Positions 1 to 8,064 of a stretch of 64,000 bases of DNA are shown here, piece by piece. Each line of letters begins with the position of its first letter. The stretch's first letter is position 1. The notes under the pieces were generated by a model. That model searched no databases. It saw only the letters and a list, made by a program, of their open reading frames with translations, and had not been told where the DNA came from. This DNA is from Lactobacillus isalae. GTDB lineage: Bacteria > Bacillota > Bacilli > Lactobacillales > Lactobacillaceae. Both the position numbers and the translations under genes were made by a program. Location: the NCBI RefSeq assembly GCF_947539375.1, contig NZ_OX443569.1:310001-374000 (forward strand), read 5' to 3'.

Positions 1-315
1 GAATTGAATTCGGTGGTAAAATCTATTATTAGTCGCCATTTTAATTTGAATTTGGAAGAAAAGGAATTTAGGTTAGTTTTATCTGCGATACTAGTAAATT
101 TTTTATCTTATTCTGTTAAAGTTCAAAATTCAGATATTCAATTGATCAAGAAAGTATTTCAGGTACTAGATAATTTAAATGGAGAACCGGATAATTGTTT
201 TGCAAAATTAATGACTTTATATTATCGAGAATATTTTGCAGAAAATAGCAAAAATATGGAAGAAATTATAAAAGTCATAAGAAATAGCGGAATGGATAAA
301 ATATTAAAAAAGTAA
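1..315 (+). CDS. Rgg/RopB-like transcriptional regulator, C-terminal part (cut by window start)
   Basis: The reading frame is open from the window edge to the TAA at 313-315, so this is the last ~104 residues of a longer protein. What is visible is all-helical and K/E/N-rich, with no DNA-binding motif. It looks like the last TPR-type repeats of an Rgg/GadR/MutR regulator, whose helix-turn-helix would lie upstream and outside the window. The family call rests on this helical pattern and on context: it sits just before an 8-codon peptide ORF and a lanthipeptide operon on the same strand. Rgg proteins such as RopB sense short hydrophobic peptides encoded beside them. A plain TPR protein cannot be excluded. 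Confidence 0.5.
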   Translation, partial: ELNSVVKSIISRHFNLNLEEKEFRLVLSAILVNFLSYSVKVQNSDIQLIKKVFQVLDNLNGEPDNCFAKLMTLYYREYFAENSKNMEEIIKVIRNSGMDKILKK

Positions 316-418: not shown

Positions 419-445
419 ATGTTTATTCCCTGGTATCCACTTTAA
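419..445 (+). CDS. 8-residue peptide MFIPWYPL, candidate leaderless signalling peptide
   Basis: ATG at 419, then FIPWYPL and TAA. A full-strength ribosome binding site GGAGGT lies at 407-412 with a 6-nt spacer, better than that of most genes in the window, so translation is likely. The product is hydrophobic and aromatic with no leader. Established parallel: in Streptococcus pyogenes the 8-residue leaderless peptide SIP (MWLLLLFL) is encoded beside ropB, is secreted and re-imported, and activates transcription through RopB, an Rgg protein. The same arrangement here (Rgg-like gene, short peptide ORF, target operon) suggests a pheromone for the lanthipeptide cluster. The alternative is a translated leader that tunes expression of the next gene. 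Confidence 0.55.
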   Translation: MFIPWYPL

Positions 446-471
446 ATAGATGAATTGGTGAGATGATAACG

Positions 472-1971
472 ATGAAAATAATGAATATTAATTTGATTAA
501 GAATATAGAATATGCAGAATTACTATCACAACCGGAAAACTCGAAATTATCAAAATTAATATTAAAAAAATTGAAAAGTTTACCAGATTATGAAGTTAAA
601 CAAAATAATTTTTTTATAGAATGTATTTCTACTAAAAATATTATGAAAGAACAAGGGTGGAAAATTCATATTTCAGCTTCTAATAATAATTATATCCACA
701 TTTTAAAAGAAGTAATTAGAATAATAGTTCCACTGAATGTTTCTTTTAAATGGGTTTCTATTAAGAATAGAAATATTATGTTAACCAAAGATTTTTTGAG
801 AGAACAGGCTGGAAAATTCATTACTATTTATCCTCAGAATAATATTCAGTTTCAAGTTTTATGCAGGATATTTCAAAAAAAATTACGTCAATATAGTGGT
901 GTTCCTATTTTGACAGATAAGTCTATCGGAAATGTAATATCAATTAGATATGGTGGTTTTAAGAAAATATTGGATTACGATAATGAAGGAGATGGAATAT
1001 ATTGTATAAGAGATACAAACAAAAAATTGGTGTATGACAGAAGAGAAATTGGAATTTATAAGCCTGAGTGGATAACTGAGAATTTTGTAAAACCATTAAA
1101 TAATCTATATCCAAAACAAAAATCTAAGTTATTAGAACAATATAATTTTAAAAATGCACTTCAATTTACTAATTATGGTGGGGTTTATGAAGCAATTCAA
1201 AAGAAAGATAATTTACACGTTGTAATTAAAGAAGCAAAAAAATATTTTGGAGGAAATATATTTAATAATAGTTTCCCTAAGGATGTAAGATCAATTCGTA
1301 GAAATGAATATTTAATTTTACAAAAAATTAGTTTAATAAATGCTACTCCTAAACCAATAAGTTACTTTAAAGAAAAGTCAGGAGATTATCTAGTCGAAAA
1401 ATATGTTAGTGGAGATCTTCTAAGAACATTACGTCTTGAAAATCCATTGTATTATCCAAATGCTACAGAAGATGAGTATAATCAATATTTAAAGAAATTA
1501 TCCCATATATTTTTGGATTTATACTTTAAAATCAATAAAATAAACAAAAATGGGATTATATTAAATGATCTTACGCCAAATAATATTATCGTAGATTTAA
1601 AAACGAATTCAGCTAAAATAATTGATTTAGAAAGTAGTGTTGATCTGTCCTGTGAAAAAACTACCTATCCTTTATTTGTTACGCCGGGGTATTCAGAATA
1701 TTTTTATTCAAAAAAACTTAGCACAAACGATGATTTCTCATGGGTCATGTGTTTAATAGATATGTTGATAGCACGGGCACAACTACTAAATATTAATATT
1801 AAGTTAATAATTCAATCACTAGAATTTTGTAGAGAAATACAAGATTCATGGGCGCAATTATGTACCCATTTAATCTTGTATCTAGAACATTATAAAAATA
1901 ATTCTAAGACACAAAATTGTATAAAAGAAATATTAAGCGATCTAAACAAGGAAATTCAAATTTATGGATGA
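472..1971 (+). CDS. Class III lanthipeptide synthetase, lyase-kinase part (LanKC without cyclase)
   Basis: Predicted to phosphorylate Ser/Thr in the precursor peptide and eliminate phosphate to give dehydro residues. The first ~205 residues match the phospholyase domain of LanKC enzymes: WKIHISAS, AGKFITIYP, SIRYGGF, and DRR-x5-KPEWI. The Ser/Thr kinase domain follows at ~220-450: glycine loop YGGVYEA, VVIKEAK lysine, catalytic loop ILNDLTPNNIIVD near residue 365, and IIDLES as the metal-binding segment. The protein stops after the kinase, whereas usual LanKC enzymes (~850-900 aa) continue into a cyclase; that part is the next gene. ATG 472 is preferred over ATG 463 because GGTGAG (457-462) sits 9 nt before 472 but touches 463. 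It overlaps the next ORF by 8 bp, implying translational coupling. Confidence 0.85.
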   Translation: MKIMNINLIKNIEYAELLSQPENSKLSKLILKKLKSLPDYEVKQNNFFIECISTKNIMKEQGWKIHISASNNNYIHILKEVIRIIVPLNVSFKWVSIKNRNIMLTKDFLREQAGKFITIYPQNNIQFQVLCRIFQKKLRQYSGVPILTDKSIGNVISIRYGGFKKILDYDNEGDGIYCIRDTNKKLVYDRREIGIYKPEWITENFVKPLNNLYPKQKSKLLEQYNFKNALQFTNYGGVYEAIQKKDNLHVVIKEAKKYFGGNIFNNSFPKDVRSIRRNEYLILQKISLINATPKPISYFKEKSGDYLVEKYVSGDLLRTLRLENPLYYPNATEDEYNQYLKKLSHIFLDLYFKINKINKNGIILNDLTPNNIIVDLKTNSAKIIDLESSVDLSCEKTTYPLFVTPGYSEYFYSKKLSTNDDFSWVMCLIDMLIARAQLLNINIKLIIQSLEFCREIQDSWAQLCTHLILYLEHYKNNSKTQNCIKEILSDLNKEIQIYG

Positions 1972-3076
1972 TGTGAGTATATTATGTCAAAAAACTTTAA
2001 TAAGTGGAAAAAATCGATTAATAGATATTTTAAGTCAAAAAAATTATATGTCTAAACTGACCCCGTATTTTTCCAATACCTATAATTTTTTATATGGTAC
2101 AGCGGGAGTATTGTATGGATTACAGCAGTTTGATGAATCTATTCCTCAAGACTTATTAGACGCTACTTTAGAGAAAATAAAAAGTAAAGATAATGAAGTT
2201 CTTCCCTCGTCACTTTCGCGAGGTAAATTGGCTCCAATGATAGTGATTTATCGTCTAACGCTAGATCCAAATTTGGAAAATAAAATATCAAATTTATTAA
2301 ATTGTGAATTTTCTAGGATTGCTTTCTCTAAAAAAATATCTTTTTCTCTGGACAATGGATTAAGTGGAATAGGTATATTATCTTTAATAATGTATGAAAT
2401 AACCCAAAAAGAGTATTATCTTTCTATTCCGGATATTATTGTAAAAATCATTTTACAACAAAAGATTATTTTATCTACATTTGGTTTAGCTTATGGAAAC
2501 ACAGGGGTAGCTGTATTTCTAATTAAGTATTATAAGTACAGAAAGAAAATTTCTATACTTAAACAGTCAAAAAAATATATATTAACAGATATCCAAAAAG
2601 GTCAATTAATAAATGGAAAAAATAAATTAAGAGGAATTAGATGCAATTTAAAATCTAATATACCTTACATATACATTCCCTATGGTACTGCCGGTATAAT
2701 TAAGACTACTTTGTTATATTTAGGAGAAATAGATGATCTTGGTTTGAGAAAAGAATTAAATTTTTTAGTAAATTCATTGAAGGTGTCGTCTACATTGCAG
2801 TCTGGCTATGCTTTTGGTACAGCGGGTATTATTTCAACTTTAAATGATATTTTAAAATTTGATAAAACTGATCCGTACCAGGTAAGAATATATTTTGAAA
2901 AGTTAATTCGATCATTATTATCGACAGGCTTTAAAATGAAAAATCAAATTATTTTTTCTGGTGATCAAAACTTTAAAGAATTTATAGATTACGGATCTGG
3001 TTCAATGGGAATCTTATTAACTTTAAAAAAGATTATCGATAATCAAGAATTTGATCCTATTTTTAAAGATTTGTAA
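1964..3076 (+). CDS. LanC-like cyclase, separate from the kinase, apparently zinc-less
   Basis: A 370-aa protein built of repeated glycine motifs typical of the alpha/alpha barrel of lanthionine cyclases: FLYGTAGVLYGL (~44), GLSGIG (~135), LAYGNTGVAVFL (~175), YIPYGTAGI (~240), YAFGTAGI (~282) and DYGSGSMGI (~345). The Cys, Cys-His zinc ligands of class I/II LanC and of class IV synthetases are not seen; class III cyclase domains are known to lack them. With the upstream protein it adds up to ~870 aa, the size of one LanKC enzyme. So this is either a stable two-gene version or the result of a split at the ATGGATGA overlap. Its likely role is closing Ser/Cys rings in the 42-aa precursor encoded next. 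Confidence 0.75.
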   Translation: MDDVSILCQKTLISGKNRLIDILSQKNYMSKLTPYFSNTYNFLYGTAGVLYGLQQFDESIPQDLLDATLEKIKSKDNEVLPSSLSRGKLAPMIVIYRLTLDPNLENKISNLLNCEFSRIAFSKKISFSLDNGLSGIGILSLIMYEITQKEYYLSIPDIIVKIILQQKIILSTFGLAYGNTGVAVFLIKYYKYRKKISILKQSKKYILTDIQKGQLINGKNKLRGIRCNLKSNIPYIYIPYGTAGIIKTTLLYLGEIDDLGLRKELNFLVNSLKVSSTLQSGYAFGTAGIISTLNDILKFDKTDPYQVRIYFEKLIRSLLSTGFKMKNQIIFSGDQNFKEFIDYGSGSMGILLTLKKIIDNQEFDPIFKDL

Positions 3077-3100
3077 ATATTTTGAAAGAAGGTGAGAAAC

Positions 3101-3229
3101 ATGAAAAACATTGAAACTGTAGTAGATTTGCAAGATTTGCAATCTATTCCAATGAAAGATCACAAAGCAACAGCAAATGATAATCATTTTGCAAGTAGTT
3201 TAAGTTGTGGATGTTCTGCATTTCATTAA
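3101..3229 (+). CDS. Class III lanthipeptide precursor peptide (42 aa)
   Basis: ATG 3101 follows a good site GAAGGTG (3087-3093). The leader segment VVDLQDLQ (residues 7-14) closely matches the class III leader motif, for example ILELQDLE in the labyrinthopeptin precursor, which the synthetase recognises. The C-terminal end SSLSCGCSAFH (32-42) is the probable core. It has four Ser and two Cys, and S32-x2-S35-x2-C38 fits the labionin pattern S-x2-S-x(2-5)-C; S33 and C36 offer lanthionine alternatives. It lies 24 nt after the cyclase gene and before the exporter, with a hairpin behind it. The leader/core border is not obvious; the ~17 polar residues between motif and core have no GG site. Confidence 0.85.
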   Translation: MKNIETVVDLQDLQSIPMKDHKATANDNHFASSLSCGCSAFH

Positions 3230-3241
3230 TAAAGTATTCAT

Positions 3242-3277
3242 AAATAAGAATGTTAGTAATAACATTCTTATTTTGTC
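3242..3277 (+). terminator. Attenuator/terminator hairpin between precursor and exporter
   Basis: A perfect 14-bp stem (3242-3255 with 3260-3273), loop GTAA, is followed by TTTTG. It lies 12 nt after the precursor stop. Partial termination or 3'-end protection here would give more precursor mRNA than exporter mRNA, a common layout in lanthipeptide operons. Confidence 0.75.
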
Positions 3278-3297
3278 TCTAATTAGGAGAAAAGGGT

Positions 3298-4872
3298 ATG
3301 AAAATCAACTTCAAATGGATAATTAAAAATCTTCCTATTTGGTTAATCGGATTAATTATAATTTTTTTAATTTTAGGTGGTTTTGAAGGTGTAGTAAATG
3401 GAATTATTTTAGGACAATTTCCAAATCTTGTGGATGCATCTTCAAACAAATTAATCTTATTTTTGATTCAAAGTAGTGGAATTTTCTGTATTGTCTATAC
3501 AGCTTTAGTTTTGAAAAATATACTCTTAAATTATGCACGGAAAATTTTAAGAGTTTCTCTAAAAAAAACTATGCTTCTAAGTAGTTTTTCAAATCATCAA
3601 GAAACAGAAAAAGGTTTGAATCAAATTAGTAATGATGCAGCCAAAATCGATGAGAATTATTTCTCTCTAATTGCCGAGATTTTATCTACTGCTGTGGCAG
3701 CAGTTATTTCGACTATTTATGTATTACAGGTTAATATTCTAATGGGAATTATTTTTGTAACCTTTTCTTGTCTAAGTTTAATCCCGATGCTTTTTGGTAA
3801 GAAAAAACTTGGAAGGCTAGGAGACGAATGGAGTAAAAGTAATACTAAGGTAATGCATACGGCTGGTGACTGGCTTCGTGGTTTTAGAGATATTTTGCAA
3901 TATAATGCACAAAGAACATTCTTTAATCATGTTTCCTCTACAATTAATCAAAGTGAAAGTATTCTTTTAAAGCAAGAAAATTTACAGTGGCTTGTGCAAT
4001 ATGTAAACTTATTGTTTACAATTTTAGCATTAGTAGGTCCATGGGCTATTGGCTTCTACTTTATTGTCAACCACTTATTTAACGTTACAATTAGTGCACT
4101 TCTTTCCTTAACTCTTTCTGCAAATAGTGTAGTTCAAAATTTTCGGATTTTAATGCAGTGTTGGTCAGAAGTAGCCGGAACAACAAATATACGTAAGATT
4201 GATGAAATTAACGAAGATATTTTAGAGCAATCAAAAATAGAATTATGTAAGCCGAATATTAAGTTGGAAAATATCAATGTAACATATGATGAGCGAGTAA
4301 TTTATAATAATCTAAATTTTGATATTCCTTACGGTAGTAAGATTTTACTACAAGGACCATCAGGAGCAGGGAAGAGTACATTTTTGAATTTAATAGCTGG
4401 TGTAATCAAGCCTAATAAAGGAAAAGTGTTGATTAATAAAAGAAAACCAAATTTAGCTGATATAACATATATTGCGCAGACGCCATGGATTTTTGAGGGA
4501 ACAATCAGAGATAATTTATGTTTAGGCGAAAAATATTCTGATAAAGAGCTAATGAAAATCTTGGAAAAAGTAGGATTAGTAGCAGAACTAGGAGAAAATA
4601 TCCTTAATAGAAAAATAAATCCAACTCAGGAAAATATTTCGGGCGGACAAAAGCAAAGATTAGTAATTGCTCGTGCGCTTTTAAGAAATAAATCTATTAT
4701 TTTACTTGATGAAATCACTGCTGCTTTAGATGATAAGAATAGTGATAAGATTAGAGAACTAGTATATCAAGTCCCTGGAACAATTATTGAAAGTGCACAC
4801 CATATTAATAATCGCCTTCTTGATAAATATAGCTTTGTTAAAAAGACAGTTAAAGATCAAAAACTAATATAA
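3298..4872 (+). CDS. ABC exporter (fused membrane and ATPase domains), putative lanthipeptide transporter
   Basis: 524 aa. The N-terminal ~300 residues hold about five to six membrane segments (from residue ~14) of an ABC type-1 exporter. The ATPase domain follows, with Walker A GPSGAGKST near 353, Q-loop IAQTPWIF, signature ISGGQKQRL near 448, Walker B SIILLDE and a late His in SAHHI. The site AGGAG lies just upstream. There is no N-terminal C39 peptidase domain, so it should export the peptide without cutting the leader; leader removal must be done by another protease. No dedicated LanFEG immunity genes follow, so self-protection may come from this exporter or be unnecessary. Last gene before a terminator. 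Confidence 0.8.
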   Translation: MKINFKWIIKNLPIWLIGLIIIFLILGGFEGVVNGIILGQFPNLVDASSNKLILFLIQSSGIFCIVYTALVLKNILLNYARKILRVSLKKTMLLSSFSNHQETEKGLNQISNDAAKIDENYFSLIAEILSTAVAAVISTIYVLQVNILMGIIFVTFSCLSLIPMLFGKKKLGRLGDEWSKSNTKVMHTAGDWLRGFRDILQYNAQRTFFNHVSSTINQSESILLKQENLQWLVQYVNLLFTILALVGPWAIGFYFIVNHLFNVTISALLSLTLSANSVVQNFRILMQCWSEVAGTTNIRKIDEINEDILEQSKIELCKPNIKLENINVTYDERVIYNNLNFDIPYGSKILLQGPSGAGKSTFLNLIAGVIKPNKGKVLINKRKPNLADITYIAQTPWIFEGTIRDNLCLGEKYSDKELMKILEKVGLVAELGENILNRKINPTQENISGGQKQRLVIARALLRNKSIILLDEITAALDDKNSDKIRELVYQVPGTIIESAHHINNRLLDKYSFVKKTVKDQKLI

Positions 4873-4878
4873 TTTTTA

Positions 4879-4908
4879 AAAGACTTGATCAGTTCAAGTC
4901 TTTTTTTG
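4879..4908 (+). terminator. Terminator after the lanthipeptide operon
   Basis: A 10-bp stem AAAGACTTGA/TCAAGTCTTT (4879-4888 with 4894-4903) is followed by a T-run. It closes the ABC exporter transcript. Confidence 0.85.
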
Positions 4909-4964
4909 TAACAAATCTTAGTTCATAATAAATATGATACGTAAATTTAGAAAGAAGGACCTTT

Positions 4965-6680: not shown

Positions 6681-7007
6681 TTAATCAAATTGTAAACTAT
6701 TATCAATTGATGCCAGATATACATAGTTTAAGTTAGTATTTTTACATTGTTCACTAAGAGAATTAATTAAAGCATCTTGTTCTTTGTTGATTGGAATTTG
6801 TTTAAGCGCTATTTGTGATTGTAAATACATGACTAACTTATTACTCCAAGCAGCTGCGTCATCATGGTTCTCAGCTTTGGCTATAACTTTTAAAATTGTT
6901 TGTTCAAGAGGAAAATATGCCTTAATTTGAACTTTGCTGAAGCTAGCATATAAATCTTTCAGTGTTTTAACAATTTCATTTTGTTTAGTAATAGTAGTTT
7001 CTAACAT
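6681..7007 (-). CDS. Bacteriocin immunity protein-like (enterocin A immunity type), orphan
   Basis: 108 aa, soluble and all-helical. The segment WSNKLVMYLQSQIAL followed by I-P-I-N-x5-ALINSLSEQ resembles class IIa bacteriocin immunity proteins, where an NRLVNYL helix is followed by Q-x2-LI-x2-LSE. These four-helix-bundle proteins block pore formation by a cognate bacteriocin. GAGGT lies 9 nt before the start. No bacteriocin precursor or exporter is visible in the flanks, so this is an orphan immunity gene, as is common in lactobacilli. Assignment is from remembered family pattern, not a search. Confidence 0.6.
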   Translation of the reverse strand: MLETTITKQNEIVKTLKDLYASFSKVQIKAYFPLEQTILKVIAKAENHDDAAAWSNKLVMYLQSQIALKQIPINKEQDALINSLSEQCKNTNLNYVYLASIDNSLQFD

Positions 7008-7271
7008 GATAAAGACCTCACTATCTTAAATAACTAATTTATTTCTGGGCCCACTTAAATACTAGCATTTGCAATGTATGAAAAGACGGTTCTGTGCCTA
7101 TATTGCAGCTTTTATTAAGTGTTTGTCTTGATTTAAATAACATCATACTGAAATTTATCAGTGACTTGTTTCTTAAATACTGATAAATGCTTAGAATAAA
7201 GCTAAAAATACAGAGAAACACGCAAATATGATAGGGCTTTCTGATAAGATTAGACTTGTGAGGTGAGAGAG
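7008..7271. promoter_or_regulatory. Intergenic region with a 10-bp inverted repeat before the DeoR-type gene
   Basis: A 264-bp region between divergent genes. A perfect inverted repeat ATTTATCAGT (7153-7162) / ACTGATAAAT (7179-7188) with a 16-nt spacer is the only clear structure; it could be an operator of the DeoR-type regulator or a weak hairpin. A minus-strand frame at 7039-7221 lacks a convincing start and is not called. Confidence 0.35.
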
Positions 7272-8064
7272 ATGCAATCGCAAGTTGAAAGATTAGATTT
7301 AATTAGACGTACATTAGATGAAAGAAAAACAATTAGTACTCGTGAAATTATGCAATTATGCCAGGTTTCCTTTGATACGGCTAGAAGGGATGTAATTAAA
7401 TTAACCAATACTGGTCAAGCAATTCGAATTCATGGTGGATTGATGAAAATCAAGCAAGGAACAGTGCCTGACTATAATTCTAGAGCACATGTTTTATCAC
7501 CTATTAAGAATAAGATGGCTAAAATGACAGCGAAATATTTGACGGCTGATAAGTTAGTTAATATATTTAAATGCGTCAACTACGATTTCGCAGCTTTGCC
7601 ATTATTTAACAGGACTGAATGCCACAATTATGACAAATTCAATTGATAATGCAGGAGCCTTAATGATGGATAATTTGCCTAACGTGATTTTACTAGGTGG
7701 CTATTTGAACAAGGAAAATCACTATACATCTTCTTTAAATAGTTTGAAAGAAATTGATCAATATGAATTTGATATAGCAGTAATTGGAACGTCTTCAGTT
7801 AATAAAAATGGGGTTTTTGTAGTTAATCATTCTGATGCACAAATTGAAAGAGAAGTAGTTAATCGTGCAAAAACAGTTATTTTACTCGCTGAAGAATATA
7901 AATTTAAAGAAGACCGTTCTTCACCATATAAAGTAATGAATTGCGACCAGGCAGATATATTGATTACGGATAATCGACTAAAAACGCAATATCGAAAGTA
8001 CTTTAGAAAAAATATTAAAATTCGGGAAGTATTAGCGGAAGAACAAAAAATAAATGAGTTTTAA
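7272..8064 (+). pseudogene. DeoR-family regulator with an internal frameshift
   Basis: Residues 1-~95 carry a DeoR helix-turn-helix (RRTLDERKTISTREIMQL, CQVSFDTARRDVIKL, IRIHGGLM). The sugar-phosphate sensor domain continues in another frame to 8064 (TNSIDNAGALM, LPNVILLGG, YEFDIAVIGTSSV, K-V/I-LLAEEYKF). Near 7563-7570 the frame breaks: removing one T from the ATATTT run restores VNILNASTTISQLCHYL, which matches the D-A-S-T-T phosphate-binding part of the family. As read, only a DNA-binding fragment of ~124 aa would be made. ATG 7272 is preferred over GTG 7263 because the ribosome site GAGGTG ends just before. The frameshift may be a true mutation or a sequencing error. Possible target: the phosphoketolase gene downstream (inference). 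Confidence 0.75.

Follow-up and report, generated by a model that had tools for sequence, protein, structure and literature searches.

A probable class III-like lanthipeptide cluster in Lactobacillus isalae whose synthetase is encoded by two overlapping genes

RESULTS

Organization of the locus

We analyzed a 64,000-nucleotide stretch of DNA from Lactobacillus isalae (bases 310001 to 374000 of a 2.12-Mb genome assembled as a single contig), referred to below as the window, and focused on a short operon at its left end. The gene order is an Rgg-type regulator, a hairpin with a 16-base palindrome, an 8-codon open reading frame (ORF), a lyase-kinase (LanK), a separate cyclase-like protein (LanC), a precursor peptide (LanA), a second hairpin, an ABC exporter, and a terminator-like hairpin. 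We conclude that these genes probably form a complete class III-like lanthipeptide cluster, probably under Rgg control, in which the LanKC synthetase is made as the product of two overlapping genes. The features are as follows, with positions numbered from the first base of the window and with lengths in amino acids (aa) and minimum free energies (MFE) in kcal/mol.

1 to 315, plus strand: regulator of the Rgg/GadR/MutR type (TIGR01716, HTH_3), C-terminal 104 residues inside the window
L005:9503-10315: whole regulator gene, 270 aa, with its start 498 bases beyond the window edge
325 to 340, no strand assigned: palindrome GTGTTAAATTTAACAC inside a strong hairpin (312 to 352) that is followed by a run of T (MFE -15.3, z -7.4)
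419 to 445 (ATG at 419), plus strand: 8-codon ORF encoding MFIPWYPL, a candidate leaderless communication peptide, and preceded by a strong ribosome site
472 to 1971, plus strand: LanK, class III-type lyase plus kinase without a cyclase domain (RamC_N, Pkinase, NF038151, 8sao_B); alternative start at 463
1964 to 3076, plus strand: LanC, a separate cyclase-like protein of the class III type that lacks zinc ligands (PF05147, NF038151), overlapping LanK by 8 bases
3101 to 3229, plus strand: precursor peptide LanA, 42 aa, MKNIETVVDLQDLQSIPMKDHKATANDNHFASSLSCGCSAFH
3242 to 3273, plus strand: hairpin between the LanA and exporter genes, probably a partial terminator or attenuator (MFE -17.2 for 3226 to 3290, z -4.3)
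3298 to 4872, plus strand: ABC exporter, 524 aa, membrane and ATPase half
4878 to 4904, plus strand: terminator-like hairpin closing the operon (MFE -12.4 for 4866 to 4915, z -3.7)

The original prediction had described a lyase-kinase, a separate LanC-like cyclase, a 42-aa precursor, and an ABC exporter in one short operon, and all four are present at that place. It had not recognized that the Rgg regulator and the 8-codon ORF belong to the same unit.

LanK and LanC correspond to two parts of a class III synthetase

A domain search of LanK finds a RamC_N lyase domain (E = 4.6e-34) and a Pkinase domain (E = 2.7e-10). The lyase domain is clear, so LanK is not the ordinary kinase that had been considered as the alternative at the outset. 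Residues 37 to 477 of the 499 residues of LanK match positions 33 to 468 of the 833-position NCBIfam class III model NF038151 (E = 3.2e-83, 280.5 bits), and LanC matches positions 519 to 833 of the same model (E = 3.9e-33, 114.9 bits) as well as PF05147 (E = 1.4e-14). Neither protein reaches the equivalog cut-off of NF038151 (575 bits). This cut-off also misses fused members, since the fused synthetase at locus L114 scores just 259.4 bits, compared with 672.7 bits for the one at L100. In a PDB search, the closest solved chain to LanK is a class III LanKC, 8sao_B (E = 5.6e-43), which, together with its kindred chains, we take to be ThurKC. When LanK is aligned with seven homologues (one of them N-terminally short), the invariant positions include K253, D366, N371, and D385, which presumably represent the lysine of the kinase and the residues of its catalytic loop and metal-binding site. 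Because the GGTGAG preceding position 472 is better spaced and this start agrees with that of the homologue at locus L037 (described below), we consider 472 the likelier start, which gives a protein of 499 aa rather than the 502 aa originally predicted.

In the alignment of LanC with other cyclase domains, the window protein has a gap in the first zinc-ligand column (with a Pro two residues before a conserved Gly) and Ala and Phe in the other two columns. The fused synthetase L046 of the same genome has Cys, Cys, and His in these columns. ThurKC is reported to have Ser726, Phe770, and Asp771 at the zinc-ligand places, and its Asp was suggested to act as a metal-free base (PMC10604976). In the seven fused zinc-free rows of our alignment (L082 counted as fused), this Asp is present in two (L096 and L100) and absent from five. 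Measured against the features of class III, the locus thus contains a RamC-type lyase with a Ser/Thr kinase and a zinc-free LanC-like domain, and it departs from the requirement for three domains in one polypeptide, as LanK and LanC are separate.

The leader (VVDLQDLQ) and the labionin-type core motif (SSLSCGC) of LanA match the class III pattern, which consists of an LxLQ-like leader motif (PMC7268733) and an SxxSx(2-5)C core motif (PMC11251773). The core FASSLSxGCS is common to the window, to L037, and to two loci that have lost the enzymes (termed scar loci below), and the L037 core, SSLSVGC, retains the second Cys and the spacing. LanA has four dehydratable core Ser residues and a computed mass of 4602.14 Da, which the loss of one to four waters would lower to 4584.13, 4566.12, 4548.11, and 4530.10 Da; an example core peptide, FASSLSCGCSAFH, would have a mass of 1315.53 Da less n waters.

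The division between LanK and LanC recurs in a diverged locus

The stop codon of LanK falls 8 bases inside LanC in a different frame, and the LanC frame is closed by a stop codon 18 bases before its ATG. At L037 (genome G059, another Lactobacillus), the same order of regulator, tiny ORF, LanK, LanC, precursor, and exporter is found, with identities to the window proteins of 48% for LanK, 61% for the exporter, and 38% for the regulator. The overlap between LanK and LanC at L037 is 14 bases long, the LanC frame is closed 24 bases upstream of its ATG, and the frame offset is the same as in the window. In addition, the LanK protein is 100% identical in a contig of another species, an uncultured Lactobacillus metagenome-assembled genome (MAG) (L038). 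In view of the closed LanC frames and the recurrence in L037, we reject a sequencing or assembly error or a frameshift as the cause of the split.

It is very improbable that the two-gene form reflects an artefact or the breakage of a fused gene. Broken fused genes do exist among the relatives, namely L082, with a frameshift at the same domain boundary, L104, with an inserted transposase, and L174, with a frameshift near the C terminus. However, an identical split with an identical frame offset occurs in two lineages whose LanK proteins are only 48% identical, the LanC frame is closed 18 (L038) and 24 (L037) bases before the ATG, whereas the L082 frame runs 84 bases further upstream, and LanK is unchanged in the contig of another species, while the window genome is a single contig.

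We classified 73 loci, comprising 69 with RamC_N-type sequence that were examined with two profiles and four more added on re-check. The second profile was seeded with the window LanC as well; a first profile, built without it, gave the window LanC an E value of 3.2e-17. Among the 73 loci, an intact cyclase in a closed frame of its own occurs, besides the window, only at L038, and L037 carries the same separate gene in broken form. The other classified loci are fused, cyclase-less, reduced, or visibly broken. Many have single chains of 600 to 850 aa with no match to the cyclase profile, although these chains are long enough for a diverged domain, and at L039 a second ORF shows weak, partial similarity to a cyclase (9.3e-6). 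L085, L104, L113, L172, and others are broken, several of them at contig ends. The four re-check loci add no further split: L175 is fused, L174 is fused with a frameshift near its end, L173 is a fragment, and L172 is broken at a contig end. The loci left unclassified (G210, G311, G515, G467, G309:C33, and G909:C17) either are short fragments or contain open frames of at least about 800 aa. Two candidates for a further split were rejected. We read L082 as a frameshifted fused gene because its cyclase frame continues 84 bases upstream into linker sequence consistent with a LanK end, and L104 is a fused gene with a transposase inserted.

The original prediction had proposed that the two-gene form was a new layout that might be sought in related genomes. 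Its recurrence in L037 supports this, as does the fact that we found no report of a naturally split class III synthetase in the literature searched, which excluded most subscription papers. One 2020 survey assigned proteins to class III only if kinase and LanC were in one protein, so split clusters would have stayed unclassified there; the same survey reports 1392 LanC proteins unclassified after removal of 1279 unlikely cases and 381 at contig ends (PMC7268733).

The regulator and the 8-codon ORF

The regulator scores 40.7 bits on TIGR01716 (RGG_Cterm; cut-off, 36.9) and matches HTH_3 (5.1e-6). Its nearest solved chain in the PDB search is 5w4m (E = 4.2e-5), which is called Rgg2 in PMC12186490. 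The palindrome at 325 to 340 is the sole site in the genome within one mismatch of GTGTYAWATWTRACAC, and L037 has GTGTCATATATGACAC at the corresponding position. The hairpin at 312 to 352 is probably the terminator of the regulator gene, and the palindrome within it may possibly also be a candidate Rgg operator.

MFIPWYPL is the only ORF of 6 to 12 codons with GGAGG 4 to 9 nucleotides before its ATG on both strands of the 64 kb. The peptide would have a mass of 1065.54 Da, or 1093.53 Da when formylated. The tiny ORF at the same place in L037 is MIPWYPCPGC... (21 codons), in which IPWYP is conserved. A pattern derived from the window and L037 tiny ORFs matches in 3 of 75 Lactobacillus genomes, always at this locus, and the reversed pattern matches once. 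Because these three hits arise by construction, the informative result is the absence of the pattern elsewhere. At the scar loci, the tiny ORF reads MFIPWYLL or MFIPCYPL and its ribosome site is lost. Leaderless communication peptides are described as mostly 8 to 10 hydrophobic residues encoded beside an Rgg-type receptor, with longer, C-terminally extended forms also discussed (PMC10518010). The window has an Rgg-type receptor and, adjoining it, an 8-residue hydrophobic ORF with a ribosome site.

We also considered that MFIPWYPL might not be a pheromone at all, being either a translated leader that tunes LanK translation or a chance ORF. This is a possibility to be taken seriously, if not the one that we favor, as the L037 counterpart, with its 21 codons, overlaps the start of LanK as a coupling device would. 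Several observations speak for a pheromone instead: the adjoining Rgg-type receptor gene, the 8 codons, the all-hydrophobic composition, and the strong ribosome site are the published features of leaderless peptides (PMC10518010); the I and P codons differ in their third base between the window and L037 while the residues are unchanged; and the enzyme-less scar loci have an altered peptide and no ribosome site. A link between a leaderless pheromone and a lanthipeptide in Lactobacillus, if true, would be one that we did not find in the literature searched.

Proposed function of the cluster

Based on these parts, we propose that MFIPWYPL would leave the cell without a leader, re-enter it, bind the Rgg protein, and so turn the operon on. 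LanK would bind the leader helix around VVDLQDLQ, phosphorylate core Ser residues, and eliminate phosphate to give dehydroalanine. LanC would dock transiently on LanK, supporting its activity, and would help a Cys thiol add to dehydroalanine to form lanthionine or labionin in SSLSCGC. A host protease would cut off the leader, and the ABC protein would export the peptide.

When ThurKC was cut at 486/487 (1-486 plus 487-872), both pieces together modified the peptide, whereas the lyase-kinase alone did not; no stable complex of the halves was seen, and the authors could not explain why the separate halves work without one (PMC10604976). The natural cut between LanK and LanC lies at the same domain boundary as the engineered one, and since the ThurKC halves acted together, we think, by analogy, that LanK and LanC work jointly in trans. 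A natural enzyme already cut at the ThurKC boundary makes the question of how two halves cooperate directly testable, with two subunits and one small precursor.

An explanation that we consider unlikely is that LanC is an activating subunit rather than a working cyclase, that LanK needs it for dehydration, and that the product is a linear or spontaneously cyclized dehydropeptide. This would be consistent with the requirement of the ThurKC lyase-kinase for the cyclase domain in dehydration (PMC10604976), with CcaM, which needs its zinc-free class III cyclase domain for dehydration although its product is ringless (PMC10676384), with the lack of both zinc ligands and the ThurKC Asp in LanC, and with L037, where LanC is broken while LanK and the exporter are whole. 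However, the retention of the SxxSxxC spacing in L037 suggests ring formation, the Asp is also absent from 5 of the 7 fused zinc-free enzymes, and two parts of CcaM were inactive in trans (PMC10676384). The broken LanC of L037 fits loss as well as dispensability.

The complete, Rgg-controlled cluster with LanK and LanC acting together, which is the explanation that we favor, has several points to contend with. LanC lacks the catalytic Asp suggested for ThurKC as well as zinc ligands. The L037 LanC is itself broken into two frames, and one of the two lineages may on that account lack a cyclase. Excised dehydration parts of other class III and class IV enzymes are reported to be active alone (PMC10604976, PMC10676384), so LanC may be dispensable for LanK. 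The PDB search with the regulator returned three sequences at an E value of 0.001 or less, which are Rgg2-type, with no RopB among them, and the L037 tiny ORF has 21 codons rather than 8. No leader protease or immunity gene was seen in the cluster in the domain search of the window proteins. Finally, the sequence itself shows which genes are present, their division, the missing zinc ligands, the motif in the core, and the conservation, and the proposed sequence of events that joins these is inferred.

It would go further to regard the locus as a separate lanthipeptide class, a two-protein LanK/LanC system in which a detached, zinc-free LanC licenses the lyase-kinase and is perhaps no longer a cyclase, with control by an 8-residue leaderless pheromone and a block swapped between Lactobacillus species. 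We regard this as doubtful.

Comparison with known systems

The ThurKC-type LanKC enzymes share with the window the RamC_N lyase, the Ser/Thr kinase, the zinc-free cyclase, the LxLQ-like leader, and the SxxSx(2-5)C core. Unlike the window, in which two genes are cut at the kinase-cyclase boundary, natural LanKC is a single chain. Class VI synthetases of streptococci are described as one chain with truncated cyclase and lyase domains, acting on short substrates and forming a four-residue ring (PMC10676316, PMC12328550). They resemble the window in the class III kind of lyase and kinase, and, judged by eye, a helix-turn-helix regulator gene of similar size lies beside several presumed class VI loci, although none of these regulators matched that of the window. 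The loci that fit class VI (about 650 aa) form a clade other than that of the window LanK. Moreover, the window LanC is separate and covers NF038151 positions 519 to 833, and the precursor is 42 aa, so that the features of class VI are not those found here.

The RopB-SIP and NrpR-NIP systems likewise pair an Rgg-type receptor with an 8-codon hydrophobic ORF that has a strong ribosome site, as the window does beside its biosynthetic operon. In the literature searched, such systems are described as controlling salivabactin, a polyketide/peptide hybrid (PMC12186490), and genes for virulence (PMC10518010), and we found no lanthipeptide case. Rgg939, of another kind (Rgg/SHP), is said to induce a pneumococcal operon with a lanthionine biosynthesis gene (PMC13361665). 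The window exporter is the same kind of ABC half-transporter as GggC, the exporter of streptosactin, which is also Rgg controlled (PMC13361665). GggC is the best NCBIfam match of the exporter, at 199 bits, under the cut-off of 750, and, unlike streptosactin, the window operon has no radical SAM gene. A domain search found no peptidase domain in the exporter.

Exchange and loss of the block

Between the window and L038, all 500-base bins from -499 to 5000 are 99.4 to 100% identical, compared with 83 to 90% in bins to the right, 94 to 96% immediately to the left, and 77 to 87% left of about -2000. Based on this near-identity between flanks that are about 85% identical, we conclude from the sequence comparison that the whole block was recently exchanged between species at the same site, although the L038 contig, from a MAG that is 79% complete, could conceivably be chimeric. 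Carriage on a plasmid is not supported, as a blastn search against 72,556 plasmid records matched just an 88-base ABC stretch in 2 records. A scan of genome contigs with LanK found one locus, in the sister MAG.

The scar loci, in 2 of 75 Lactobacillus genomes (L069 in G033 and L070 in G113), have kept the regulator (91%) and the exporter (84%), and the deletion begins near codon 11 of LanK and ends within the core of the precursor.

Relatives of LanK

RamC_N occurs in 22 of the 100 genomes in the relatives set, counting the window genome, and 20 of these 22 belong to the genus. In the sets for the order, class, and family, which overlap, it occurs in 31 of 395, 29 of 398, and 33 of 397 genomes, respectively. 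Class III-type enzymes are thus ordinary in the genus, and the split form is not. The original prediction had stated that class III peptides are described mostly from actinomycetes and a few bacilli. These counts qualify that statement, and Firmicutes class III clusters have been experimentally identified (PMC12328550).

A LanK tree of 36 rows (loci up to L117; the identical L038 and rows with 300 or fewer profile positions left out) groups the window LanK with L037 at 100/100, with the fused L090 from another family of the order as a weakly supported neighbor (89/54). Descent of LanK from the fused L046 of the same genome is unsupported, since the window LanK pairs with L037 far from L046. 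This second synthetase (L046:6386-8986, C1 at about 1.766 Mb) has 866 aa and matches best the class IV model, under its cut-off. Its locus has two tandem relatives of the Rgg regulator, a precursor ending in CGYTCSKTC, and a preceding 15-codon ORF, MVIIVLPVLPHDFNK.

A separate clade of nine rows (100/100; L040 to L043, L086, L102, L103, L106, and L107) contains lyase-kinases of 416 to 493 aa, and the stretches fetched around these nine loci gave no cyclase match. Each of the nine loci carries a precursor-like ORF with similarity to the one at L041, which is weak for L042 (E = 5e-4). The L041 leader resembles NHLP model NF038399 (31 bits; cut-off, 40), and several cores of the clade approximate GALSGAHSxxC. 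At 8 of the 9 loci there is a related partner protein of about 100 aa, which matched no family in the cases tested, and L040, L086, and L103 additionally carry a gene of the prolyl-oligopeptidase family. The clade is possibly an undescribed kind of ribosomally synthesized and post-translationally modified peptide system. At L042 (5100-5132), a 10-codon ORF, MWWELPVILG, with a strong ribosome site lies between a 282-aa regulator gene and the cyclase-less lyase-kinase locus; it is a second candidate leaderless peptide.

In other Lactobacillus genomes, L071, L072, L077, and L079 each pair a relative of the Rgg regulator with an exporter of the window kind, and neither a synthetase nor an evident precursor lies between the two. 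A similar palindrome (TGACAC arm) follows the regulator at L072 and L077. In another family of the order, L039, L084, L087, L088, and L089 fit class VI. Their precursors have 27 to 32 aa (MTQF...TWKC is one example), their synthetase, which is perhaps divided over two ORFs at L039 and L084, has about 650 aa, and their exporter, judged by eye, is of the MFS type.

Surroundings of the operon

Genes for a PfkB-family kinase and ribose-5-phosphate isomerase lie upstream of the locus, and a nucleoside hydrolase gene lies downstream. A promoter scan was uninformative (38 found versus 32.6 expected), and the hairpin at 4878 to 4904 is absent from the list of the consensus scan. A gene at 6681 to 7007 resembling enterocin A immunity was rejected as a cluster member, being a weak match (17.3 bits; cut-off, 22.1) beyond the exchanged block. 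A DeoR-like regulator (by eye) at 7263 to 8064 consists of two overlapping ORFs (127 and 144 aa) in a frameshift-like arrangement, where L038 has a single 261-aa ORF.

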